From: Ensifer sp. LC163
GTDB taxonomy: Bacteria > Pseudomonadota > Alphaproteobacteria > Rhizobiales > Rhizobiaceae
Length of the DNA: 51,189 nucleotides
Reading direction: 5' to 3'
Assembly: GCF_001695855.1 (NCBI RefSeq)
Contig: NZ_MBSS01000024.1
Location: forward strand, 1 to 51,189
Below, one piece after another: positions 9,389-51,189 of the stretch. Positions within the stretch are counted from its first letter, which is position 1; each line of letters starts with the position of its first letter. The position numbers were made by a program, and so were the translations under genes. The notes beneath the pieces were generated by a model that did no database searches, was not told the DNA's origin, and was given only the letters and a program-made list of their open reading frames with translations.

Positions 9389-9545
9389 CCTTGCAAACCT
9401 CCGTCATGTCAGCCGGGGAATGCGCACAAAGGCGCCACAGATCATTATCTGCGGATGGGGCCGGCTCTCTCCGGCGCAATCATGTTCCCCAGGCTTTTTT
9501 GCCCTTGTTGACTAGCATTAGGTGACAAATCCTCTGGAAAATCAA

Positions 9546-9590
9546 TTGACATTGTTATAGCGTTTCGTGTGAGAAAAATTCACATAACAA
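9546..9590. promoter_or_regulatory. Candidate LysR operator in divergent promoter
   Basis: The gap between the ureohydrolase and LysR genes holds a nested inverted repeat: TTGTTAT (9553-9559) with ATAACAA (9584-9590), enclosing GTGA-N7-TCAC. A TTGACA hexamer begins at 9546. An AT-rich dyad next to a divergent LysR gene is the usual place for its binding site. Transcription starts cannot be assigned. Confidence 0.45.
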
Positions 9591-9612
9591 CAGCCCGCCG
9601 GAACTGACCTCC

Positions 9613-10659
9613 TTGTCCAGCCGCCTGCCGCCTTTGAACCCCTTGCGCGCCTTCGAGGCAACGGCGCGCCGTGGCTCCGTGTCGGCTGCCGCGCGTGAAC
9701 TGAACGTGACGCATGGCGCCATCAGCCACCAGATCCGCGCGCTCGAACTGTCGATCAACGCCACGCTGTTCGAGCGCGGCGGCAAGCGGCTGAAACTGAC
9801 GCCGCAGGGCGCGCTATTGCTACCCGCCGTCACCCACGCCTTTGCCGAGATCGCTGCGGCGACAGCCGCCATGACGCGCCCGACCACCAGCGGCGAGTTG
9901 CGCATCACCTGCGTTCCCGCCCTGCTCTCCTTCTGGCTGATCCCGCGTCTGCATCTCTTCACCGAGCAGTTTCCCGACGTGCGCCTGACCCTGATCGCCT
10001 CCAATGACGCCGCCTATCTCGATGCGTCCGATGTCGACGTCTGCCTGATCTACGGCGACGGCAACTGGCCTGGCTGCTGGTCGAAGCTCTGGAGCCGGCT
10101 GGAACTGTTCCCGGTGGTCAGCCCGACATTGCTGAACATGCGGCCGTTGCGCTCCGTGCGCGACCTGCGCGACCATGTGATGCTGCATGGCGACGACGGC
10201 CGCGAATGGAACACCTGGCTGGCGGCAGCCGACGCCAGCGACCTGCAGCGCGGCCGCCAGCATTTCATGAGCGATGCGCGGCTTTCGACCGAAGCGGCGC
10301 TGCACAATCAGGGTGTCGCGCTCGGCGACACCATCACCGCCGGCAGCCTGATCGCGCGCGGCGAACTGATCGCGCCTTTCGACCTGACGGTTCCGGCCAA
10401 CGACGCCTTTTACGTCGCCTGCCGCAACGAGGTACTGGCCGCGCCGATCGTGCGCATTTTCATCGACTGGATGTTCTCGGCGCTGGAAAACGACCCGATG
10501 CCGGAACTCCAGACTTCGGCGCGCACGATTATTCGCAGCCGAGCCTCGAAATCCGATCCGACAGACCGTAAATCGGTAAACGACGGTTTTCAGCCGGTTT
10601 CAGCCCCGGCCCGTGGCCGGCGGCTGGACCGCCCACAGAAACGCAAGAACAAAGCCTGA
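9613..10659 (+). CDS. LysR-family regulator (GcvA-like)
   Basis: Predicted 348-residue regulator. An N-terminal winged HTH (PLNPLRAFEATARRGSVSAA, then VTHGAISHQIRALE) resembles GcvA, and a substrate-binding domain follows from about residue 90. The start is probably TTG at 9613 with only a weak GGA upstream; there is no in-frame ATG before the HTH and the frame closes at 9547. It is divergent from the ureohydrolase operon, which it probably controls. It is followed at 18 nt by an aminotransferase gene that may share its transcript. The tail after residue 300 is polar and longer than usual. Confidence 0.88.
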   Translation: MSSRLPPLNPLRAFEATARRGSVSAAARELNVTHGAISHQIRALELSINATLFERGGKRLKLTPQGALLLPAVTHAFAEIAAATAAMTRPTTSGELRITCVPALLSFWLIPRLHLFTEQFPDVRLTLIASNDAAYLDASDVDVCLIYGDGNWPGCWSKLWSRLELFPVVSPTLLNMRPLRSVRDLRDHVMLHGDDGREWNTWLAAADASDLQRGRQHFMSDARLSTEAALHNQGVALGDTITAGSLIARGELIAPFDLTVPANDAFYVACRNEVLAAPIVRIFIDWMFSALENDPMPELQTSARTIIRSRASKSDPTDRKSVNDGFQPVSAPARGRRLDRPQKRKNKA

Positions 10660-10677
10660 GACATAGGAACACCCGCC

Positions 10678-11856
10678 ATGCCGCATTTCAATCCGCTCGT
10701 CGAAAAGCTCTCGCCGCCGCCCGTGCCGTCGGTGCTTGCCTGGGCGAAAAGCTATGATGGCGCCCGCGGGCCGCTGATCGACCTGTCGCAGGCGGTGCCC
10801 GGCTATCCGGCGCACCCCGACATGCTGGCATGGCTCGGCGAAGCGGCGGCATCGACTGCCTATACCGGCTATGGCGCAATAGAAGGCGAAGCCGTGCTGC
10901 GCGAGGCCTATGCCGCGCATGTGGCAGGCCTTTATGGCTCTGCGATCACGGCCGACAACATCCACATCACTTCGGGCTGCAACCAGGCGTTCATCTGTGC
11001 CGCAATGGCGATTGCCGCGGCCGGCGATACGATCCTGATGACCAACCCCTACTACTTCAACCAGAAAACGACGCTGGCCATGCTCGGCATCAATGTCGAG
11101 CTGGTGCCCTGCGATGCCGGTGCCGGTTTCCTGCCGGAGGTGGACGCAATCACTGCAACGCTGCGCCCGGGTATCCGCGCGCTTGCGCTCGTGTCGCCGA
11201 ACAATCCGACCGGTGCGATCTATCCGCCCGAGCTTCTGTCGCGCATTCACGACGTCTGCCGCGCCAACGGTACCTGGCTGATTCTCGACGAAACCTACCG
11301 CGACTTCCTGCCCGACGCCGCCGCGGCCCCACACGAATTGCTGCAGGCGCAAGGATGGCAGGACAGTTTCATCGGCCTCTACAGCTTCTCGAAATCCTTC
11401 TGCATTCCGGGCCATCGTCTCGGCGCGATCACGGCCGGGCCGGCGCTCGTAGAGCAGGTCACCAAGATCATGGACAACCTGCAGATCTGCGCACCCCGCT
11501 CGGCCCAGGCCGCGGTCGCCAAAGCTATTCCCGCGCTTGCCGATTGGCGCCTTGGCAATCGCGCCGAAATCGCCACGCGTGCCGATGCGCTGCGCGATGT
11601 CATGAGCCGGCTGCCGCAATGGAAGCTGCAGGCGATCGGTGCCTACTTCGCCTATGTCAGGCATCCGTTCCCGGATATCGATTCGCAGTTCGTCGCCGAG
11701 AAACTGGCGAAACTCGCCGGCGTCGTCTGCCTGCCGGGGGACTATTTCGGCGAGGGCCAGGAAAATTACCTGCGCTTTGCCTTTGCCAATGCCGACGCCG
11801 ACACGATCCGCCAGCTGGAAGAGCGGCTCGCCGGCTTCAACCTCCCCGGCCTGTAG
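10678..11856 (+). CDS. PLP-dependent aminotransferase, class I/II
   Basis: Predicted 392-residue fold-type I aminotransferase. The cofactor residues are visible: Asn176 region (SPNNPTG), Asp204/Tyr207 (ILDETYRD), Lys239 as the Schiff-base lysine (YSFSKSFCIPGHR), and the phosphate-contacting Arg in GHRLG. It follows the LysR gene by 18 nt, probably as one operon, and converges on the EamA gene with a 6-nt gap. The substrate is unknown; a role downstream of guanidino or polyamine catabolism is possible from context only. Confidence 0.9.
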   Translation: MPHFNPLVEKLSPPPVPSVLAWAKSYDGARGPLIDLSQAVPGYPAHPDMLAWLGEAAASTAYTGYGAIEGEAVLREAYAAHVAGLYGSAITADNIHITSGCNQAFICAAMAIAAAGDTILMTNPYYFNQKTTLAMLGINVELVPCDAGAGFLPEVDAITATLRPGIRALALVSPNNPTGAIYPPELLSRIHDVCRANGTWLILDETYRDFLPDAAAAPHELLQAQGWQDSFIGLYSFSKSFCIPGHRLGAITAGPALVEQVTKIMDNLQICAPRSAQAAVAKAIPALADWRLGNRAEIATRADALRDVMSRLPQWKLQAIGAYFAYVRHPFPDIDSQFVAEKLAKLAGVVCLPGDYFGEGQENYLRFAFANADADTIRQLEERLAGFNLPGL

Positions 11857-40824: not shown

Positions 40825-41781
40825 TCAATCCTCGGTAATGGTCCAGTTGTCATTGGGATTGAACTGCTTGATATCGCGCGCCATCGTATCCGTTCCCGCG
40901 CCGAGATCCGCCTGATAGACGGTGCCGTTCCGGTTGACGACGAAGGTATGGATGCCCGTCTCGCCATATCGAACCGGCCAGGCAACAAGCCCAAAACCTG
41001 CGATCATGTTGCCGTTGATCACGTAGTCGTAGGCGCCGCCGGCGATGTTTCCCCCCTGGCGCGTCAGGATCTTGAAGCGATAGCCGTAGTAACCTTCGTT
41101 CGCTTTGGCTTTATCCAACTGAGCTTGTGAAAGATCTCCTGCGGGACTGTCGCCATCCCCCTGCTCTGCGGGCCAATAGAGGCCATCCGTCTGTCCTTCA
41201 CTCGATATCAGTTTCTGGGCATACTCGAACACGCCATCGCCATCGTGATCTTCCTGGGTGTATTCCTCCTGTGCGTCCACATAGGCTCGCACCGTGTTGA
41301 TCGCCTCAAGCTCATTCTCACCGACGCGGCGATTGATGATCTCTTCGATCCCGGCATAGGTGTCAAAGGCCCACTTGCCGTCTTCTCCCTTGGTAATCGG
41401 GAAGGGCAAAGGCCAGAGCTGGTCGCCGATCTCGATGATCTTGTTGTCGCCCGCGTCCGTCAGGGTCACCTTCTTGGCGGCGCCCGCCTTGATCTGCTCA
41501 TAGGTGTTCATCACCCCTTCGCTCGTTTTGAGCTTTTCAGCATCAAGGCCCAGCAACGCGGCTAGCTTGCCCATGTCGCCCGAATTCACTGCCTCCTTGA
41601 AGGCAGTCAGCGCCTTGTCCGGATCGTCGAAGGTGGGCGGATCGGTCGGCGAGATATAGTCTGCAAGTTCAGCCGGCTCGCTCTCAGCCGCCAACGACAC
41701 TCCAGCGTAGGCCGACAGGCCGAGCAGCAACAGCCCGACACCCGAACGGAAAATCATGCTCTGACGATGATGCTTGGTCAT
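40825..41781 (-). CDS. DUF2950 family periplasmic protein
   Basis: Predicted 318-residue exported protein with a signal peptide (FRSGVGLLLLGLSAYAGVSLAA). It matches my recollection of DUF2950: DDPDKALTAFKEAVNSGD near the N-terminus, then GYYGYRFKILTRQG, and YGETGIHTFVVNRNGTVYQ near the C-terminus. ATG 41781 is preferred over 41787 by spacing from GGAGGG. Function unknown. It lies 25 nt after the DUF3300 gene, a pairing also met in other proteobacteria. A much longer open frame upstream is a shadow of that gene. Confidence 0.85.
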   Translation of the reverse strand: MTKHHRQSMIFRSGVGLLLLGLSAYAGVSLAAESEPAELADYISPTDPPTFDDPDKALTAFKEAVNSGDMGKLAALLGLDAEKLKTSEGVMNTYEQIKAGAAKKVTLTDAGDNKIIEIGDQLWPLPFPITKGEDGKWAFDTYAGIEEIINRRVGENELEAINTVRAYVDAQEEYTQEDHDGDGVFEYAQKLISSEGQTDGLYWPAEQGDGDSPAGDLSQAQLDKAKANEGYYGYRFKILTRQGGNIAGGAYDYVINGNMIAGFGLVAWPVRYGETGIHTFVVNRNGTVYQADLGAGTDTMARDIKQFNPNDNWTITED

Positions 41782-41806
41782 GATCATTCCCTCCCGTTTC
41801 GCGCGC

Positions 41807-43270
41807 TCAACGACGACGTCCGCCACCACCGCGTCCGCCGCCACCATGACGGGCCCCGCCGCCACCGCCGTGCCGGGCCATAGACCGACCGCCACCGCCG
41901 CCGTGGCTGATGGAGCGATGCGGCGGGCGCCCGCTGCGGGCGCCGCCACCGAGGGCCTGGCCGCCGCGCCGCGACTGGATCTGCGTCGCCTTGCCGGAAC
42001 GCACTTCTCCGAGACCTGACGGTTTGCGCGGACGATTGTCGACTTTGCCTGCCGGACGCGGCTTGCTCGCCGGCCGATTGATCTTGCCGCCGGAACCGGC
42101 GCCGGGTTTTGAGACATTGCCGGCTCGCTTTGCCGCCGCGGCGGCACCGGCCTGCCTGTTGGCCGCCCCCGCGTTCGGCCTTGCGGCCGCCGCTCGGTTC
42201 TTTGCGCCATCGATCTTGTTGGCCCGAACATCCTTCAGATCCTTGAAGGAACCCGTGTCGACCTTCTGCCGCAGGCTTGCGCTCGCATTGCTTCGGGTGA
42301 TTTTGGCCTTGTCGCGAATATTGTTGTGACCGTTGGCTTCGAGCCTGTTCTTCATGTTCGTTCGGTCGAGCTTGGCGAACTGGCTCTTGTCGATGTTGAT
42401 CTTGCTCCGGTCGACGTTCTTCCAGTCGATGTCGTTGAACTTGACCTTGCCGGTGATATCGATGTCGTTGAAGCAACGATTGCAGTCCACATCGATGTCT
42501 CCATCGAACCGACCGCCCCACACGCCCCAGTCATCCCAGTCGACAATCGCACCGAACACCGCTCCGGTCACCGCACCCGCAAAGAACGTCGCCGCCGGAT
42601 AATAGTAGCTCGGATATGGCTCCGGATAATACGACAGCGGCTCCGGCGCATAGTCCGGCACGTAGAGCATCTCCGGCTCGTATTGGGGCACGTAGATCTT
42701 TTCCGGATTGGCCGCCTGGATGATGACGTTGTCGTTCTCCTGAACGACCTTCATCTTGTCGTCGGTCTTCAGCACGCCCGAAGCAACCGCCTTGTCGCGA
42801 AGCTGCTGAATGGCGATCAGCACATCCTTCTGCTGATAGGCCATGGCGTCAGACAGCGATTGCGTCCAGTCGAGATCCTCGCTCATCATCATGACGAGCT
42901 CGGGATAGTTCAGCAACGAGATGACGCTGCCGTCCCAGCTGTCCTTAGGCTTCAGATCCTTGTTCTTCTTGAGGTTTTCAAGATAGCGCTCCGCTTCGAC
43001 GATCTGCAAAGGAAAGAGCGAGGCTGAGGCGATGAGCGCGACCAACTCGTCAGGGTAGAGCGCGATACGGGCGACAAGGACTTCGAGTTCATCCTCGCTG
43101 AGGGGCGCAGGCCTATCCGCGTCATCCTGCTGAGCCGCCGAAGGATCGGCAGCAGCTTGCTCCTGCGCAAACGCCCGAAAATTGTAGGTGTAGGGCTCCG
43201 GGATCAGCAAGCAGGCCGTGGCCAGAAAGCAGATCGATCGATGCAAACGGATGACACTCAGAACTGCCAT
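41807..43270 (-). CDS. DUF3300 family exported protein with Gly/Arg-rich tail
   Basis: Predicted 487-residue exported protein. An N-terminal signal is followed by the DUF3300 core (LVARIALYPDELVALIASAS, QIVEAERYL, and tyrosine-rich YPEPYPSYYYPA). The last ~200 residues are low-complexity: a basic Asn/Lys/Ala region, then GGGGGRSMARHGGGGG and a terminal GGGGRRR. ATG 43270 is supported by GGAGGGG. It is the first gene of a three-gene leftward operon. The basic glycine-rich tail suggests an envelope or nucleic-acid/polyanion-binding role, but no function is known. Confidence 0.87.
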   Translation of the reverse strand: MAVLSVIRLHRSICFLATACLLIPEPYTYNFRAFAQEQAAADPSAAQQDDADRPAPLSEDELEVLVARIALYPDELVALIASASLFPLQIVEAERYLENLKKNKDLKPKDSWDGSVISLLNYPELVMMMSEDLDWTQSLSDAMAYQQKDVLIAIQQLRDKAVASGVLKTDDKMKVVQENDNVIIQAANPEKIYVPQYEPEMLYVPDYAPEPLSYYPEPYPSYYYPAATFFAGAVTGAVFGAIVDWDDWGVWGGRFDGDIDVDCNRCFNDIDITGKVKFNDIDWKNVDRSKINIDKSQFAKLDRTNMKNRLEANGHNNIRDKAKITRSNASASLRQKVDTGSFKDLKDVRANKIDGAKNRAAAARPNAGAANRQAGAAAAAKRAGNVSKPGAGSGGKINRPASKPRPAGKVDNRPRKPSGLGEVRSGKATQIQSRRGGQALGGGARSGRPPHRSISHGGGGGRSMARHGGGGGARHGGGGRGGGGRRR

Positions 43271-43647
43271 TTCCCCTCCCGATCGGACGCATTCTCGCGT
43301 CACCTGTCCTGTCTGCTGGTGCGTCGCTCTCTGTCTGCCTAGCTGCTGGTCTGATATGTCGGCAGCGCCTCGGCTGCCTCAAGTGTGCGCGGATACTACT
43401 GCATAAGGTCTTTCTTTTTCAATGCACAAATGATGTCGCTGCGAAGGCACCTTCTCTGGGTTGTGGCAAACGACCTCTCCAGGCCTGCGATGCTACCGCC
43501 AAACGGCTAGGTCCTGCCCAAATGGATATAGACGAATTGCAGGCTCTTCTTTTCCCGCAACTGGCTACAGAATAGCCGTTCAATTCGGGCCCATGTTCTG
43601 CGCGATGTCGCAGGGCCTGTGCTGAAAGGTGGATTGGAGAGACGGCG
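43271..43647. other. 377-bp divergent intergenic region
   Basis: It separates the leftward DUF3300 operon from the rightward secretion cluster and must hold both promoters. GGAGAG lies just before the rightward start. I see no strong hairpin, no clear sigma-70 pair and no supported gene; short frames across it show no family resemblance. Confidence 0.5.
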
Positions 43648-44733
43648 ATGACGGAAACTCGTCCCTTGTCGGAAGAAGCGCCGAACACGAACACCAATCA
43701 GAACACGGTCGCGACAGCTGCCGGCGGACATCTGGCGCTGGTCCCCACCTGGCTCCCCCTTGAGCTTGTCCCCGACCCGGATGGTAATTCGGCCGGAAGC
43801 GGCGGCGACGGTACGAGCATCGGCACGCTCAGCAGCAATACCCTGGCTGTATTCATGCCCTCCAACGCAGCCATCACCGGCCCTCACTCGGCGGCAGATG
43901 CCCAGCAGGGCAATAACGCCCTGATCAACCAACATGCAACCGAAATGGCCGGCATGGGCGGAGATGGCGGCAACGGCAACATGGCCGGCAGCGGTGGCGG
44001 CAATGCCGGCGGCGGCGGCAGCGGCACCTTCATCGGCGGCCTCGTCAGCACGGACGTGGGCGTGTTTGCCCCGGTGAACACCGCCGTTGCAGCAGGACCG
44101 GAATCGACAGCCACGGCCACCCAGACCAACAACGCAGCGATGCTGCAGGGTGCGACCCAGATCGGCGGCATCGGCGGTTCGGGTGGCGACAACAACATTA
44201 GCGGCGGTGGCGGCGGCTCATCTGCCAGCCACGGAACATCCATCACCTTCACCGGCGACAATTTCGCCGGACACGGCGGCGATGGCACCTTCATCGGCAG
44301 CATGATCGACGTGAACGTCGCGGTCTTTTCGCCGATCAACATCGCAATTGGCGCTGCCGGCGGGGACGCCCAAGCCCACCAGACCAACAACGCCATCTTC
44401 GATCAAGGCGGCATGCAGATCGCCGGTATCGGCGGCGCCGGCGGCGGTTTCAACCTGTCGTCGGACACGATCTTCACCGGCGGCCAGATGGCCGGCGGCG
44501 GCGGATCGGGCTATTCGAACGGGAGCATGGTCGATGTCAGTATCGGCTATTTCCACCCGATCAACATTGCCGTTCCGGCCGGCGGCACGGCGGATGCGCA
44601 ACAGCTCAACACCGTCCTATACGACCAGCACGCATTGCAGGTCGGTGGCATCGGCGGGCTTGGCGGCGAAGGCAACCTGTCCGACGCGCACTCGGCCCTC
44701 GTCGACGATATCCTGACTTTCGTGGACGGCTGA
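43648..44733 (+). CDS. Glycine-rich tandem-repeat protein, likely type I secreted
   Basis: A 361-residue acidic protein without an N-terminal signal peptide. Four repeats occupy about residues 50-345. Each has a hydrophobic strand motif (AVFMPSNAAI at 67, GVFAPVNTAV at 138, AVFSPINIAI at 225, GYFHPINIAV at 300). A Gln/Asn block ending in GG-rich turns follows (ADAQQGNNALINQ at 83, ATATQTNNAAMLQ at 155, AQAHQTNNAIFDQ at 241, ADAQQLNTVLYDQ at 315). The C-terminus LVDDILTFVDG is acidic and hydrophobic, like uncleaved type I secretion signals. Genes for an ABC exporter and an adaptor follow. No known family is recognised. It may form a beta-helical or adhesive surface layer (inference). Confidence 0.8.
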   Translation: MTETRPLSEEAPNTNTNQNTVATAAGGHLALVPTWLPLELVPDPDGNSAGSGGDGTSIGTLSSNTLAVFMPSNAAITGPHSAADAQQGNNALINQHATEMAGMGGDGGNGNMAGSGGGNAGGGGSGTFIGGLVSTDVGVFAPVNTAVAAGPESTATATQTNNAAMLQGATQIGGIGGSGGDNNISGGGGGSSASHGTSITFTGDNFAGHGGDGTFIGSMIDVNVAVFSPINIAIGAAGGDAQAHQTNNAIFDQGGMQIAGIGGAGGGFNLSSDTIFTGGQMAGGGGSGYSNGSMVDVSIGYFHPINIAVPAGGTADAQQLNTVLYDQHALQVGGIGGLGGEGNLSDAHSALVDDILTFVDG

Positions 44734-44991
44734 CATCCCCGGCTGTGCCCTTGGTGGCTTCTCCTGGCGCATATATGGCGTGGTGGCGATTGCCAACCTG
44801 TGCGCGCCAAGCCTTTGTGGCCGGATCGGCACCTATACATACCCCACCCAAAAGAACGTCCCCGAATGTCCGGCTGGTTCGCGCAGGCGATCACGCGCAC
44901 CATCTGTCTGCGGGTACCCCGTCTGCGACAACGTCGCATCCTACCGAAACCGCTCGAGAACACGGGGTAAGCTACATAGAGGAGCAACGCT

Positions 44992-45603
44992 ATGCCTATT
45001 CCGCAAGCATCTGACACGATCAATCTCAGCAATTCCGATGCTGGCGACGCGAGTGCCGGCAACGGCGGCGACGGCTTCAACTATGGTGATATCTACTACA
45101 ACCCAGTGGCCTATGTCGCCAACACGCAGACCGTCGAAGGCGCCTATACCAACCTCTACAATGGCGACGATGTCTGGCAAAACGCTGGCTGGGGAACCGG
45201 CAGCGCTGACGGCGGCGGTCTTGTTCAGGTACCGATCGCCGTCTTTGCGACCCTCACCAATAGCGGTGCGGGCGGCGCCGGCGGCAATCCCACATCGAGT
45301 GGCGACCAGAGCAACTCGAGTGGTGGCAATGTAGCGGCCGTGGCAGCCGACACCACCGCAACGCAGAACACGCAATTGGTTGCTGATCAGAGCGCCACCA
45401 TTCTCGCCGGCGTCGGCGGCGGCGGCGGCAACGGCAACTTTGCTCAAGGCGGCAACATATCGTCGGCCCTGGTGCACACGAATCCGTGGACCGAAACCAA
45501 CACGAGCACATCAACGAACACCGAAACCGCGACGGTTTCGAATGCGCTCGCCAACTTCAGTAACGAATTCGGCACCATCGACCTGAGCGATATCGGGACG
45601 TGA
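44992..45603 (+). CDS. Small Gly/Asn/Thr-rich protein, likely second secreted cargo
   Basis: A 203-residue protein with no signal peptide and good GAGGAG spacing. It carries one degenerate copy of the upstream protein's repeat: PIAVFATLTNSGAGGAGG (81-98), then TATQNTQLVADQSATILAG and VGGGGGNGN (122-149). The region before it is rich in Tyr and Asn (YGDIYYNPVAYVANTQT). The C-terminus (NEFGTIDLSDIGT) is again acidic and hydrophobic. It lies between the large repeat protein and the exporter gene and ends at a strong hairpin. No family is recognised. Confidence 0.75.
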   Translation: MPIPQASDTINLSNSDAGDASAGNGGDGFNYGDIYYNPVAYVANTQTVEGAYTNLYNGDDVWQNAGWGTGSADGGGLVQVPIAVFATLTNSGAGGAGGNPTSSGDQSNSSGGNVAAVAADTTATQNTQLVADQSATILAGVGGGGGNGNFAQGGNISSALVHTNPWTETNTSTSTNTETATVSNALANFSNEFGTIDLSDIGT

Positions 45604-45611
45604 AGTCAGCC

Positions 45612-45645
45612 ATGAGGATCGCCGGCTTCGGCCGGTGATCCTCAT
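45612..45645 (+). terminator. Strong hairpin between cargo and exporter genes
   Basis: ATGAGGATC (45612-45620) pairs with GATCCTCAT (45637-45645), with inner CCGGC/GGCCGG pairing. It starts 8 nt after the cargo stop. The T tract is short (TCTT), so partial termination would give more cargo than exporter mRNA. Confidence 0.7.
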
Positions 45646-45705
45646 CTTCCCGTGCCTTGGCCGATACCCTTGCCTTGTCAGAATCGATTGCACCGAGATC
45701 TGATA

Positions 45706-47421
45706 ATGACAGCGAAATCTACACCATTGCAGCGCGAACCGACGCATCTGGTCATGGCCCTTCGGGCTTGCGCCGGGGCCTTCGGCTTGGTCTTCCTCTA
45801 TAGCTGTGGCTACAACCTCTTTCTTCTCGCCCCGTCCATCTATCTGCTGCAGATCTACGATCGGGTTCTGTCGAGCCGCAGCGCTGATACGCTGGTGATG
45901 CTGACGCTGATCATCGCGATCGCGGTCGTGGTCGGGTCGCTGCTGGATATCGTGCGCCGCGCCGCCCTTTCACGCATTGGCAGTTGGCTTGATCATCGGT
46001 TGCGGCCGGTGGTTCTCACCGCTTCCTTCGAATATGGCGCGCGCACCGACGCGGGTGTCGCGACCGAGTGCTACAAGGACCTGTCGATCCTGCGCCAGTT
46101 CCTTGATTCGCCTGCCAGTTCCCTGCTTTTCGACATTCCCTGGGCGCCCGTCTTCCTGTTATTGCTCTTTCTCGTTCATCCTCTGCTCGGCGTCATCGGG
46201 CTTCTGAGTGCGCTCACCCTGCTTTTGCTTGCCATCTTGACAGAGATGGCGACGCGGCGGCCGCTGGCCCACGCCAACCTTACCTTGGCCCGCAGCTACA
46301 CGCGCTTTTCCAGCGCCCTCAAATACATCCAGGTGATCCGCGCGATGGGTATGCAGGATGGTGCCGCACAGATCGTCTACCGCGACGCCGAGACGGCGCG
46401 AAAGGCGCAAGACAACGCAATGCATCGCACGGAGATCATTCTGGGCTTGTCGAAATCCGTCAGGACGCTTACGCAAATTCTGATGATGGGTGCGGCCACC
46501 TTGCTTGTGCTCGAGGAGAACAGCAGCCCCGGCATCATCTTTGTCGCAAGCTTGCTGCTCGGGCGCGGGCTTGCGCCTGTTGAAGGGGCGATCGGCGCCT
46601 GGAGGTCCTTCGCCTTTGCGCGCAACTCCTTCAACAGGCTCAATGCCATGTTGATCGCCGTCGCGGCGGACAGTGGCGCACGCATGGTTCCGGTCCCCGA
46701 ACCCAGCGGTCTCGTTCTCGAGGGCGTCGGCTATACGCTCCCCTTCGCAGATCGCCAGATATTGCAGGGCGTGACGCTTCGGCTGGCGCCGGGCGATTGC
46801 GTCGCCCTGATTGGGCCGTCGGGATCGGGAAAATCGACGCTCGGTCGTATCATCGCCGGCGTCGAGCCGGCGACGAGCGGCTGCGCACTTCTTGGCGGTG
46901 TCGACATCTCCGCCCTGCGCCTGTGCGCAGGCACATGTCATGTCGGTTACTTGCCGCAGGACATCGAGCTCTTCGGCGGCGCCGTCAAGGACGTCATCGG
47001 CCGGCTGGACGGAGCGGATCCCGGCAAGGCGATCGAGGCAGCCAAGCTCGTCGGGCTGCACGAAACGATCATGCGCCTGCCCAAGGGCTACGACACCGAT
47101 ATCGGCGAAGGCGGCGGCCTACTCCTGCGGGCGCAGCGCCAGCAGCTTGGGCTGGCGCGTGCCGCCTACGGCAATCCGTCACTGGTGGTGCTTGACGATC
47201 CGAACTCGAGCCTCGACTACGACGGCGAGCGCAAGCTGTTCACCGCCATATCGCGAATGAGATCCCGCGGCATGATTGTCGTCATCATCACCCATAGGAT
47301 GGGAATTCTGCCCGTTACCAACAAGATCGCCATTCTGCGCAACGGCACGGTCGACGCCTTCGGAGACAGCGAGCAGATCTTCGAAACCCATCTTCAGCCT
47401 CCGGCGCGAACCGGAACGTAG
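45706..47421 (+). CDS. Type I secretion ABC exporter (PrtD-like) with degenerate motifs
   Basis: Predicted 571-residue exporter. Its N-terminal membrane domain (about 1-320) has the PrtD-like segments LLAPSIYLLQIYDRVLSSRS and LFDIPWAPVFLLLLFLVHPL. The C-terminal ATPase has Walker A GPSGSGKST (370-378), Q-loop Gln418 and H-loop His530. The ABC signature, normally LSGGQ, reads LLRAQ (473-477). Walker B reads LVVLDDP, with Asp498 in place of the catalytic Glu. As a homodimer both ATP sites would carry both changes. ATG 45706 is chosen; an in-frame start 54 nt earlier is possible. The adaptor gene follows at 15 nt. Confidence 0.88.
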   Translation: MTAKSTPLQREPTHLVMALRACAGAFGLVFLYSCGYNLFLLAPSIYLLQIYDRVLSSRSADTLVMLTLIIAIAVVVGSLLDIVRRAALSRIGSWLDHRLRPVVLTASFEYGARTDAGVATECYKDLSILRQFLDSPASSLLFDIPWAPVFLLLLFLVHPLLGVIGLLSALTLLLLAILTEMATRRPLAHANLTLARSYTRFSSALKYIQVIRAMGMQDGAAQIVYRDAETARKAQDNAMHRTEIILGLSKSVRTLTQILMMGAATLLVLEENSSPGIIFVASLLLGRGLAPVEGAIGAWRSFAFARNSFNRLNAMLIAVAADSGARMVPVPEPSGLVLEGVGYTLPFADRQILQGVTLRLAPGDCVALIGPSGSGKSTLGRIIAGVEPATSGCALLGGVDISALRLCAGTCHVGYLPQDIELFGGAVKDVIGRLDGADPGKAIEAAKLVGLHETIMRLPKGYDTDIGEGGGLLLRAQRQQLGLARAAYGNPSLVVLDDPNSSLDYDGERKLFTAISRMRSRGMIVVIITHRMGILPVTNKIAILRNGTVDAFGDSEQIFETHLQPPARTGT

Positions 47422-47436
47422 GAGGGGGACGGCACC

Positions 47437-48879
47437 ATGCACCTTGTTCAGATCGAACCGCCGTCCGCGCGGATCATTGCCACCCCGAATACGGCCAACC
47501 GCTCGGCAAAGGCGCAAGGTCCGATCGGAAAATTGCTGACCTATTCACCGCAGGACGGCATCAACCCGATCGAGCTCGCAGCCGCCTCGCCGCTGTCCAG
47601 GCTGCGCTCCGTCGCTTGGACCGGCAATCTCCTGATCGGCTTCTTCGTCATCGGTCTTGGCACGTGGTCGGCACTGGCGCCGCTCAGCAGTGCGGCAATC
47701 GCCTCCGGCGTCGTCGAGCCGGAAAGCAGCCGCAAGACCATTCAACATCTGGAAGGCGGGATCATCCGGCAGATCCGCGTGAAGAACGGCGATGCCGTCA
47801 CCTCCGGCCAGGTCCTGATCGAACTGGACGACACCAAATTCCGCTCGGAACGCGACAGCCTCCAGGGGCAGCTCTGGGACGCAGAGGCCAGGCGCGCGCG
47901 CCTGCTGGCCGAGCAGGATGATGCCGACAACATAACCTACCCGACCGAGATGCTGGCCGTCATGGCCGACAATCCCTCGGTCAAGGCGATCGTCATCGGG
48001 CAGCAGCGGATTTTCGAGACCCGTCGCCAGGTCATGCTGTCCGAGATTGCGATCACCCAAGAAAGAATGAAGCAGGTTCAGCAGGAAGTCGTCGGCCTTG
48101 CCGCCCAGAAGGCAGCGCTGAGCGAACGGGTCGAAATCTCCAGGCAGGAGCTTGAGAGCGTCACGACGTTGACCGCCAAGGGGCTCGAGAAGAAAAGCCG
48201 TGTCCTCAACCTGCAGCGCGAAAAGGCCGATATCAGCGGGCGGCTGGGAGAAATCGCCGCCCAGATTTCTCGTGCCTACCAGGTGATCAGCGAAGCCCAG
48301 GCCTATCTCGTCAAACTTCGAAGCGACCGGCTAAACGAAGTCGCGCAGACGATGCGCGAAACGGAAACGCAGATCCTGCAACTGAGCGAAAGGTTGCGCG
48401 CGATCGATGATCAGCTTGCCAGAACCGAGATCAAGGCGCCTGAAGACGGCGTGATCATGGATTTGCGGATCCATACCAACGGCGGCGTCATCGGTGCCGG
48501 CGAGCCGCTCGTCGACCTCGTCCCACGCAAGGGCCGCCTGATCGTCTCGGCCCGGGTGCGGCCCGAGGACATCAATCTGGTGCATCCGGGACTTGAGGCA
48601 CAGGTCCACCTGCTGCCTTACAACCAGCACCGTGTACCGCTTCTGAAGGGCAAGGTGGAATATGTCTCGGCGGACCGTCTGGTCGATAAGCAAACCGGCC
48701 AGTCCTACTATGCCGCAACGATCCATGTGGTCGACGAGCGGCTGGCGACGATGAGCGACGTCGAGCTTGTGCCCGGCATGCCGGCCCAAACGCTGATCGA
48801 GACCGGACGCAACAGCGTTGCCCTCTATGCGCTGAGACCGCTGCTGGACAGTTTCAACAGAGCATTTCGTGAGGACTGA
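47437..48879 (+). CDS. Type I secretion membrane-fusion protein (HlyD/PrtE-like)
   Basis: Predicted 480-residue periplasmic adaptor. It has a cytoplasmic N-terminus of about 60 residues, one membrane helix (62-80), a first biotinyl/lipoyl half-motif (GGIIRQIRVKNGDAVTSGQV), a long alpha-helical hairpin (about 135-340), the second half (RTEIKAPEDGVIMDLRIHTN) and a beta-barrel end (VELVPGMPAQTLIETG). It links the ABC exporter to an outer-membrane TolC protein, which is not encoded here. The cytoplasmic N-terminus is somewhat long. Confidence 0.92.
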   Translation: MHLVQIEPPSARIIATPNTANRSAKAQGPIGKLLTYSPQDGINPIELAAASPLSRLRSVAWTGNLLIGFFVIGLGTWSALAPLSSAAIASGVVEPESSRKTIQHLEGGIIRQIRVKNGDAVTSGQVLIELDDTKFRSERDSLQGQLWDAEARRARLLAEQDDADNITYPTEMLAVMADNPSVKAIVIGQQRIFETRRQVMLSEIAITQERMKQVQQEVVGLAAQKAALSERVEISRQELESVTTLTAKGLEKKSRVLNLQREKADISGRLGEIAAQISRAYQVISEAQAYLVKLRSDRLNEVAQTMRETETQILQLSERLRAIDDQLARTEIKAPEDGVIMDLRIHTNGGVIGAGEPLVDLVPRKGRLIVSARVRPEDINLVHPGLEAQVHLLPYNQHRVPLLKGKVEYVSADRLVDKQTGQSYYAATIHVVDERLATMSDVELVPGMPAQTLIETGRNSVALYALRPLLDSFNRAFRED

Positions 48880-48984
48880 AACATGCTGTAGCCGGCTGCT
48901 CTGTGCGCGATGCGAATGGAGGTTCGTGCTCCATTGATGCCCGATGCCCCTTGCATCCCTGGCTTGGTTCCACCGAAGGATACC

Positions 48985-49257
48985 ATGATGGGCAAGCGAA
49001 AATTCGATGACGATGAGATCATGGACATCCTCAGGGAGCATCAGGCCGGCGCAACGGTGGTGGAGGTCTGCCAACGTTATGGCATCAGCGAACCGACCTT
49101 CTATCGCTGGCAATCCTCGCAGCTTCGAACCGTCGGTTTCGACGTCAAACGCATACGGGCGCTCGAGCAGGAGAACCAAAAGCTGAAGAAGCTGCTTGCC
49201 GAAGCCATGCTGACGGCGGCGACACTGAGCGAGATGTTGGAGAAAACCTCGAAATGA
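48985..49257 (+). CDS. Solitary IS3-family OrfA-like HTH protein
   Basis: A 90-residue protein with the layout of IS3/IS911 OrfA. An HTH (DDEIMDILREHQAGATVVEV, then YGISEPTFYRWQ) is followed by a leucine-zipper-like coiled coil (IRALEQENQKLKKLLAEAML). No OrfB/DDE integrase follows; the next gene, in opposite orientation, begins its stop 6 nt later. No terminal inverted repeats or target duplications were found. AAGGA precedes ATG 48985. It is either an IS remnant or an OrfA kept as a DNA-binding regulator of the secretion cluster. Confidence 0.8.
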   Translation: MMGKRKFDDDEIMDILREHQAGATVVEVCQRYGISEPTFYRWQSSQLRTVGFDVKRIRALEQENQKLKKLLAEAMLTAATLSEMLEKTSK

Positions 49258-49263
49258 CAACGG

Positions 49264-50001
49264 CTACGTTACCGCCGCTCCATTGCCGGACGAGGGCCTG
49301 CCGCCCAGTCGCGCGACGACCTCCGTGCGGTTCTGCACCTGAAGCTTGCGCATGATATGCTGGAGATGCATTTTCACCGTGTGGCCCGACAGGTTAAGTT
49401 TGCCGGCGATAACCTTGTTGGAAGAGCCGCATTGCAGCTCGGCCAGCACGTCGGCTTCCCGTGGCGTGAAGTCGGCCAGAATCAGTTCGTCGGCGCGCGA
49501 CCGCCTGATCTCTCGGTCCGCATGCTCGGGCACCACGTGCAGCGTCGCGCCGTCGGTAAACGCACCCAGCGGATGCGGACAGAACACCCCGCCTGCCAGC
49601 ACCAGTCGCAAACCAGCCAGGGCAATCTCAATCGGCAGCGATGTGGTAAAGAAGCCGCGGATGCCCATCTGGAGCGCCTGCGCCGCTATCGAGCTGTCGT
49701 CTGTATCCGACAACAAAGCGACCGGCGCCTCAGGAAAGCGAGCCGCAACGGCGGCAAGGTCGGCCAGCAGACCACCGCTTCGCACCCCCCTCCCCGCCAG
49801 ATCAAGCGTGATCAGGCGCACGTCCATGCCCAGAGCCCGATCGAGGCTCGCTGTCGAGATCATATCGATGAAGTTCCATCCCGCAAGTTCGCGCTCGAGG
49901 AGCGTGACGATGGCGGTGCGGGCAAGCGTGTGCGGTTCGATGACGATGCCGGTCGGTGCATTGCGCCCTTTGCGGCGCACCGTTCCTGAACTGATGGACA
50001 C
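49264..50001 (-). CDS. LuxR-type regulator with atypical receiver
   Basis: Predicted 245-residue regulator. The C-terminal LuxR/FixJ HTH is clear (FTPREADVLAELQCGSSNKV and SGHTVKMHLQHIMRKL, about 178-230). The N-terminal domain resembles a response-regulator receiver with a possible phospho-acceptor Asp67 (LITLDLAG). The acidic pocket reads IVIEPHT, and the usual conserved Lys position is in GFFTTSLP without Lys. It may therefore work without standard phosphorylation. It converges on the OrfA-like gene at 6 nt and is the obvious candidate regulator of the secretion cluster. Confidence 0.87.
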   Translation of the reverse strand: MSISSGTVRRKGRNAPTGIVIEPHTLARTAIVTLLERELAGWNFIDMISTASLDRALGMDVRLITLDLAGRGVRSGGLLADLAAVAARFPEAPVALLSDTDDSSIAAQALQMGIRGFFTTSLPIEIALAGLRLVLAGGVFCPHPLGAFTDGATLHVVPEHADREIRRSRADELILADFTPREADVLAELQCGSSNKVIAGKLNLSGHTVKMHLQHIMRKLQVQNRTEVVARLGGRPSSGNGAAVT

Positions 50002-50742: not shown

Positions 50743-50819
<77 letters not shown>

Positions 50820-50828
50820 CCATCGCGG

Positions 50829-50915
50829 TAAACCGCTTTGCGGTTTATCCGCTTTCTCCCGGGTTTTGCCTTCGGCAAAATCCCGTTTGTCCGGTCCGAG
50901 TTTTGCGAAGCAAAA
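50829..50915 (-). repeat. Three small hairpins in the 5S-tRNA spacer
   Basis: TAAACCGC/GCGGTTTA (50829-50847, loop TTT), TTTTGCC/GGCAAAA (50864-50880, loop TTC) and TTTTGC/GCAAAA (50901-50915, loop GAA) stand in series between the tRNA and 5S genes. They may be processing or stability elements of the rRNA precursor. Confidence 0.6.
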
Positions 50916-50950
50916 TCTCGTTTGTTTCTGAGTTTTCAGTCTAACCAAAC

Positions 50951-50974
50951 AAAAGGGCCGCTTGAGGGCGGCCC
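50951..50974 (-). terminator. Hairpin with T-rich tail downstream of 5S
   Basis: GGGCCGC (50955-50961) pairs with GCGGCCC (50968-50974). Reading leftward it is followed by TTTTGTTTGG. It looks like a terminator or partial terminator between 5S and tRNA-fMet, although the tRNA probably needs some read-through or its own promoter. Confidence 0.65.
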
Positions 50975-51096
50975 ATTGTTCGGCTGGGCCGAGGTTTGTG
51001 TGTGTCGAGAAGAGTTTATCTGCGCCGCTACCTTGTCCTTCTCGGCGTTGCCTCGAAGGGGAGCGGCGTATCCGGTTGTTTTTCTTGCGCTTTGCA

Positions 51097-51189
51097 GACC
51101 TGGCAGCGACCTACTCTCCCGCGTCTTAAGACGAAGTACCATCGGCGCTGGGGCGTTTCACGGCCGTGTTCGGAATGGGAACGGGTGCA
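51097..51189 (-). rRNA. rrf: 5S ribosomal RNA, 3' part (runs off the window)
   Basis: Read leftward from the window edge, the sequence contains the 5S core CCCGTTCCCATTCCGAACAC, then GCCCCAGCGCCGATGGTACT and the 3' end GGGAGAGTAGGTCGCTGCCA. The 5' end lies outside the window. The 3' boundary near 51097 is set by comparison with typical rhizobial 5S (ending CCAGGTC). It is the tail of a leftward rRNA operon. Confidence 0.95.

Follow-up and report, generated by a model that had tools for sequence, protein, structure and literature searches.

The window analysed here is the whole of contig NZ_MBSS01000024.1, 51,189 bases of the 6.5-Mb genome of Ensifer sp. LC163, and it contains a set of six genes that is, with fair probability, best explained overall as a dedicated type I secretion cassette for two repeat proteins. 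The set encodes two Gly-rich proteins (hereafter cargo1 and cargo2), a PrtD-type ATP-binding cassette (ABC) exporter, an HlyD-type periplasmic adaptor, an OrfA-like helix-turn-helix (HTH) protein and a LuxR regulator, all located together at positions 43648-50001 as the first-pass annotation of this DNA had described (Table 1). That annotation presented them as an undescribed type I system, which proved right in part: the exporter pair is TobDE, already described in 2008, and the novelty lies in its likely substrates, unnamed until now, in a conserved block preceding both cargo genes and in an altered ATPase signature. Based on sequence comparisons, export of both cargos by TobDE is considered likely.

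The association between cargo and exporter was evaluated in both directions. A species-level genome collection was scanned with a five-row cargo1 alignment and two peptide patterns, and therefore only relatives keeping either pattern could be found. The scan returned 78 loci, the named genera being Rhizobium, Ensifer/Sinorhizobium, Phyllobacterium, Brucella/Ochrobactrum and Aminobacter. ABC, HlyD and cargo2 genes adjoin cargo1 in 75 of them, a LuxR gene is present in 74 and an HTH gene in 67; one locus without LuxR (L050) has a contig end close by. Gene order varies (46 divergent and 29 collinear loci) and gene content is the same. Regarding the three exceptions, the contig ends about 200 and 115 bp past cargo1 in two (L030 and L097, respectively), and the third, from Aminobacter sp. 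AP02 (L103), carries a broken cargo1 (344-1368), and the surrounding 11.4 kb contain none of the set's TobD, HlyD and cargo2 genes. The cassette looks to have decayed in that strain. Among 199 family genomes, which overlap with the 78 loci and are no independent sample, cargo1 was detected in eight: the genome of the window, four in which exporter and cargo2 are also present (three of these having HTH as well), the Aminobacter one and two with weak matches, which were discarded.

In the opposite direction, TobD was matched at E<=1e-140 in 52 of 100 genomes of a Rhizobium-type genus and in 52 of 146 genomes of a Bradyrhizobium-like genus, which belongs to another family of the same order and whose cargo1 relatives were not among the 78 scan loci. 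Cargo2 lies directly upstream of the exporter in 61/61 exporter loci examined, that is, 30 per genus search plus L113, with the other matches outside this count. Three longer Bradyrhizobium-like loci contain cargo1, cargo2, ABC, HlyD and LuxR genes, with an identity of 43-61% for the set, 44-47% for LuxR and 37-44% for cargo2. Six other PrtD-type loci, namely ToaD, PrsD, two more of the window's genome and two of another genus, are without such a cargo, barring two weak matches. The neighbourhood comparison, which could have placed the cargos mostly away from this exporter, thus revealed two-way linkage in two bacterial families, strengthening the earlier suggestion of a dedicated non-RTX type I system, in which export itself is still a deduction. 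Additionally, the ratio of non-synonymous to synonymous substitution rates (dN/dS) of the six genes was 0.04-0.18 in three comparisons.

The exporter could be identified through Rhizobium leguminosarum bv. viciae 3841 (L047), in which exporter matches (E<=1e-60) lie at three positions (91.5 kb, 670.9 kb and 3.854 Mb), the match at 670.9 kb being 83% identical. According to a 2008 survey of R. leguminosarum secretion (PMC2275737), the source of all statements on that survey below, the exporters of this strain are RL0072 (ToaD), RL0623 (TobD) and RL3658 (PrsD), with TobE as RL0622, and the middle match was assigned to TobD because the order of the matches along the genome parallels that of these genes. 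In that survey, TobDE was named and mutated and its substrate was not found, no known type I substrate gene was placed within 10 kb of tobDE, and a TobD of B. japonicum was reported as 52% identical, with synteny. Both toaDE and tobDE were termed enigmatic, TobDE because no tobD-dependent protein had been found. No paper naming a TobDE substrate was found in the open-licence PMC literature. TobDE of strain 3841 shares exporter and neighbour genes with the system of the window, the difference being that no substrate was named there, whereas two candidate cargos are proposed here. PrsDE is likewise a PrtD/HlyD-type type I exporter present in the same rhizobial genomes; however, TobD shares only 34% identity with the PrsD protein of 3841 and belongs to a separate clade, the TobD proteins clustering together when 21 exporters were placed in a tree. 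Most of the substrates known for PrsDE are of the RTX or cadherin-like kind (PMC2275737).

Profile searches placed the cargos in no curated family: neither reached the cut-off of any Pfam family (best DUF4774, 15.9 bits versus 25) or matched NCBIfam at E<=1, and when 58 cargo2 and nine cargo1 relatives were scanned with Pfam, all matches were weak and scattered, the best having an E of 0.0037. The closest named cargo1 relative is that of Ensifer adhaerens SD006 (96%). Family counts, which comprise 77 cargo1 and 75 cargo2 proteins and exclude the broken Aminobacter copy, showed that Cys is absent from all of them and that the mean net charge is -26 for cargo1 and -17 for cargo2. The proposal that the two cargos have a repeat of their own in common was borne out. 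The core Q-x7-Q-x6-G-x-[GA]-G-x-G-G, a pattern composed after viewing the sequences once a stricter version had missed copies, occurs four times in 70/77 and three times in 7/77 cargo1 proteins and once in 75/75 cargo2 proteins, with one match in 3,040 shuffled proteins. In cargo1, it belongs to four units of about 75-85 residues each, with fixed Gln and Gly positions. Furthermore, the cargo1 and cargo2 profiles are homologous (hhalign 97.1%, E 4.7e-11).

The cargo N-termini are not strongly hydrophobic, as judged by Kyte-Doolittle hydropathy alone: the top 15-residue mean within the first 60 residues was 1.15 for cargo1 and 0.22 for cargo2, compared with 2.20 for CsgA, and the family maxima were 1.87 and 1.13, respectively. 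The acidic-hydrophobic C-termini attributed earlier to the cargos were recovered for cargo1, in 74/77 proteins by a pattern of the analyst's own. Two database records label cargo2 relatives as PE-PGRS, a label that is probably composition-driven. PE-PGRS proteins share the Gly-rich low-complexity composition but differ in their PE domain: Pfam matched neither this domain nor a related one in cargo2 or, at E<=0.1, in its 58 aligned relatives. In work on R. leguminosarum sv. viciae, 17 genes were linked to nodulation ability on pea cv. Afghanistan, and two of them, PAFN15 (a chromosomal 'PE-PGRS FAMILY PROTEIN') and PAFN16 (a hypothetical protein), have the same presence pattern (PMC8457355); judging by the PE-PGRS label, these might be cargo2 and cargo1, respectively. 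RL0626, numbered near tobDE, was listed in another report as impairing growth if disrupted (PMC5118466).

The exporter matches the PrtD family TIGR01842 with 535.6 bits (cut-off 510.15) and likely starts at ATG 45706, its frame also opening at GTG 45652, while the adjacent adaptor matches TIGR01843 with 371.2 bits (cut-off 208.65). Two TolC-type proteins (TIGR01844, over cut-off) are encoded in the genome, both outside the cassette. TobD retains the Walker A, Q-loop and H-loop and departs from the canonical ABC signature and catalytic Glu, neither of which is part of the curated PrtD family definition. In 75 Rhizobiaceae loci, the signature is LLRAQ in 73, LLRSQ in one and LLRAE in one, with the catalytic Glu replaced by Asp in 75/75; a set of 30 Rhizobium exporter loci, overlapping in species with the former, gave LLRAQ in 29, LLRSQ in one and Asp in all 30. 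The 31 Bradyrhizobium-like loci (30 parsed, L131 by eye) have Arg at the third signature residue and retain Glu, and the six other exporters have Glu and a canonical signature, or LSAGQ in the case of PrsD. Since the dN/dS of the exporter is 0.07-0.09, the altered ATPase does not represent decay. As a separate observation, ToaD-type exporters (L125, R. leguminosarum 3841, 9473-11770; L027, 6865-9369) carry a long N-terminal extension, which in ToaD of 3841 includes a Gly-rich stretch.

The two cargo genes are preceded by similar blocks. The most conserved 30-bp upstream blocks begin at 43524 for cargo1 and 44848 for cargo2, and the best-matching 30-bp profile pair begins at 43509 and 44839 with a score of 21.6, a value reached by 0/1000 shuffled profiles (mean 11.5, maximum 20.9). 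A common upstream pattern was present with <=3 mismatches in 76/78 cargo1 and 74/76 cargo2 regions versus 1/655 background pieces, and with <=4 mismatches it occurs just twice in the window; as an alignment of 15 such regions had served to derive the pattern, these counts are partly circular, the profile-pair test being less so. The similarity suggests one regulator for both genes, and the linked LuxR protein (GerE, 62.6 bits, cut-off 23.5) would be the simplest candidate, with the HTH protein (HTH_Tnp_1, 54.1 bits, cut-off 24.1) as an alternative where present. The HTH gene, included in the set from the outset, adjoins the adaptor gene in 67/75 exporter-bearing loci with a dN/dS of 0.04-0.10, but it is not a core member, being unmatched in the three longer loci of the Bradyrhizobium-like genus. 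The OrfB transposase gene that would follow OrfA in an IS3 insertion sequence is missing, and the LuxR gene, on the opposite strand, ends 6 bp beyond; it looks like a domesticated orphan IS3 OrfA-like gene, whose product is perhaps a regulator.

Taken as a secretion cassette, the system may operate as follows. TobD, TobE and one of the two TolC-type proteins encoded elsewhere would export both adjacent-gene cargos, directed by C-terminal signals, and outside the cell the repeats would fold into a stacked beta structure, providing surface or matrix material of a non-RTX kind. Cargos and exporter would be switched on together by one regulator, for which the LuxR protein is the simplest choice. 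For a structural surface role of the cargos the chances are about even. In the AlphaFold model of cargo1, which is of moderate confidence, four similar four-stranded units are accompanied by a C-terminal helix (mean predicted local distance difference test, pLDDT, 61.5; predicted template modelling score, pTM, 0.53). In the Foldseek comparison FapC was the first row and a CsgA fibril was among the "VIA" rows. The likeness to the functional amyloids curli (CsgA) and FapC consists of Gly/Asn/Gln-rich repeats predicted as stacked strands. The curlin repeat Curlin_rpt (PF07012) matched neither cargo at E<=1 nor anything in the genome, while the E. coli control was matched. A more specific version, in which cargo1 as the major and cargo2 as the minor or capping component form an amyloid-like or beta-solenoid extracellular fibre or coat, with the ATPase rewritten for slow or gated export, is doubtful.

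Several observations weigh against the secretion cassette. In the 2008 survey, a tobD::Tn5 mutant of 3841 was unchanged in supernatant bands, biofilm rings, motility and nodulation, and the authors allowed that TobDE may secrete a non-protein cargo (PMC2275737). The [FLI][VAI] C-terminal end reported for RTX proteins (PMC8861453) occurs in 0/77 cargo1 and 2/75 cargo2 proteins. One of the two TolC-type genes adjoins another ABC gene. Before cargo1 of the three Bradyrhizobium-like loci the promoter block is unrecognisable, with 6-7 mismatches. As for structure, confidence in the cargo1 model is only moderate, with the C-terminal helix mostly below 50, and the cargo2 model is unusable (mean pLDDT 41.1). 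Finally, the missing canonical LSGGQ signature and catalytic Glu of TobD are the chief reason for caution over a plain ATP-driven exporter.

The unchanged tobD mutant and the atypical ATPase could also be accommodated if the repeat proteins stayed inside the cell or acted as exporter partners while TobDE exported something else; the survey authors themselves weighed a non-protein cargo, having seen no tobD-dependent supernatant protein. This reading is improbable, considering that the cargos are Cys-free, very acidic repeat sequences and that the exporter falls within the protein-exporting PrtD subfamily. Moreover, the 2008 gels covered trichloroacetic acid-precipitated supernatant of one medium only (PMC2275737), and therefore insoluble or unexpressed proteins could have escaped them.

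That the cargos are diverged RTX proteins folding on calcium is rather more unlikely. PrtD-type exporters commonly carry RTX cargo, and Gly-rich turns are found in every repeat, the looser GGxGxD occurring at least once in 73/77 cargo1 and 47/75 cargo2 proteins. However, the strict nonapeptide GGxGxDxUx was found in 0/77 cargo1 and 1/75 cargo2 proteins, one exception in 152 to its absence as first noted, the repeat has the length and fixed Gln/Gly positions given above instead of a 9-residue period, and no Pfam RTX match was obtained in the cargos or scanned relatives. Least likely of all are antagonistic proteins, since bacteriocin-like proteins are often variable, whereas these cargos show conservation, the first four relatives being 64-77% identical to the window copies. 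No Pfam toxin domain was found in them or in scanned relatives, the cassette shows no immunity gene, and the Pfam hits of the exporter include no C39 peptidase domain. Nevertheless, other rhizobial type I systems do export bacteriocins (PMC2275737).

Table 1. Features of the TobDE cassette in the window
Feature	Position	Strand	Basis
Conserved operator-like block, 130 bp before cargo1 start; among most conserved bases, resembles cargo2 block	43518..43545	+	Upstream alignment
cargo1, Cys-free Gly/Asn/Gln-rich, 361 aa, candidate TobDE substrate	43648..44733	+	Open reading frame, family comparison
cargo1 repeat core 1	43906..43971	+	Pattern, residue 87
cargo1 repeat core 2	44122..44187	+	Pattern, residue 159
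cargo1 repeat core 3	44380..44445	+	Pattern, residue 245
cargo1 repeat core 4	44602..44667	+	Pattern, residue 319
cargo1 C-terminal element, candidate signal for secretion, helix predicted with low confidence	44680..44727	+	Pattern, AlphaFold
Conserved operator-like block, 144 bp before cargo2 start	44848..44875	+	Upstream alignment
cargo2, related Gly/Asn-rich, 203 aa, candidate TobDE substrate	44992..45603	+	Open reading frame, profile comparison
cargo2 repeat core	45364..45429	+	Pattern, residue 125
TobD, PrtD-type type I ABC exporter, 571 aa	45706..47421	+	Profile match, tree
Altered ABC signature LLRAQ replacing LSGGQ	47122..47136	+	Exporter alignment
Asp replacing catalytic Glu after Walker B	47197..47199	+	Exporter alignment
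TobE, HlyD-type periplasmic adaptor, 480 aa	47437..48879	+	Profile match
Orphan OrfA-like HTH protein, accessory	about 48985..49257	+	Pfam match, conservation
LuxR-type (GerE) regulator, candidate cassette activator	49264..50001	-	Pfam match, linkage

Just upstream of the cassette, DUF3300 and DUF2950 genes lie next to each other at 40825-43303 (-), and a DUF3300 gene is found at the equivalent place in five Ensifer-group loci (L028-L032). At the other side, 50743-51189 (-) holds a tRNA-Met gene and the truncated end of a 5S rRNA gene, and the contig probably stops at a ribosomal RNA operon.

The presence of two conserved neighbours across two families makes the question of the TobDE substrate directly testable, given that a tobD mutant exists. 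If the secretion cassette is confirmed, the type I secretion of plant-associated bacteria would gain a class of non-RTX repeat cargo, and 'PE-PGRS family protein' labels in rhizobia could be hiding secreted candidates. Likewise, an ABC exporter clade with an altered signature motif would raise the question of how such ATPases work, in a gene set whose carriers are soil and root bacteria.

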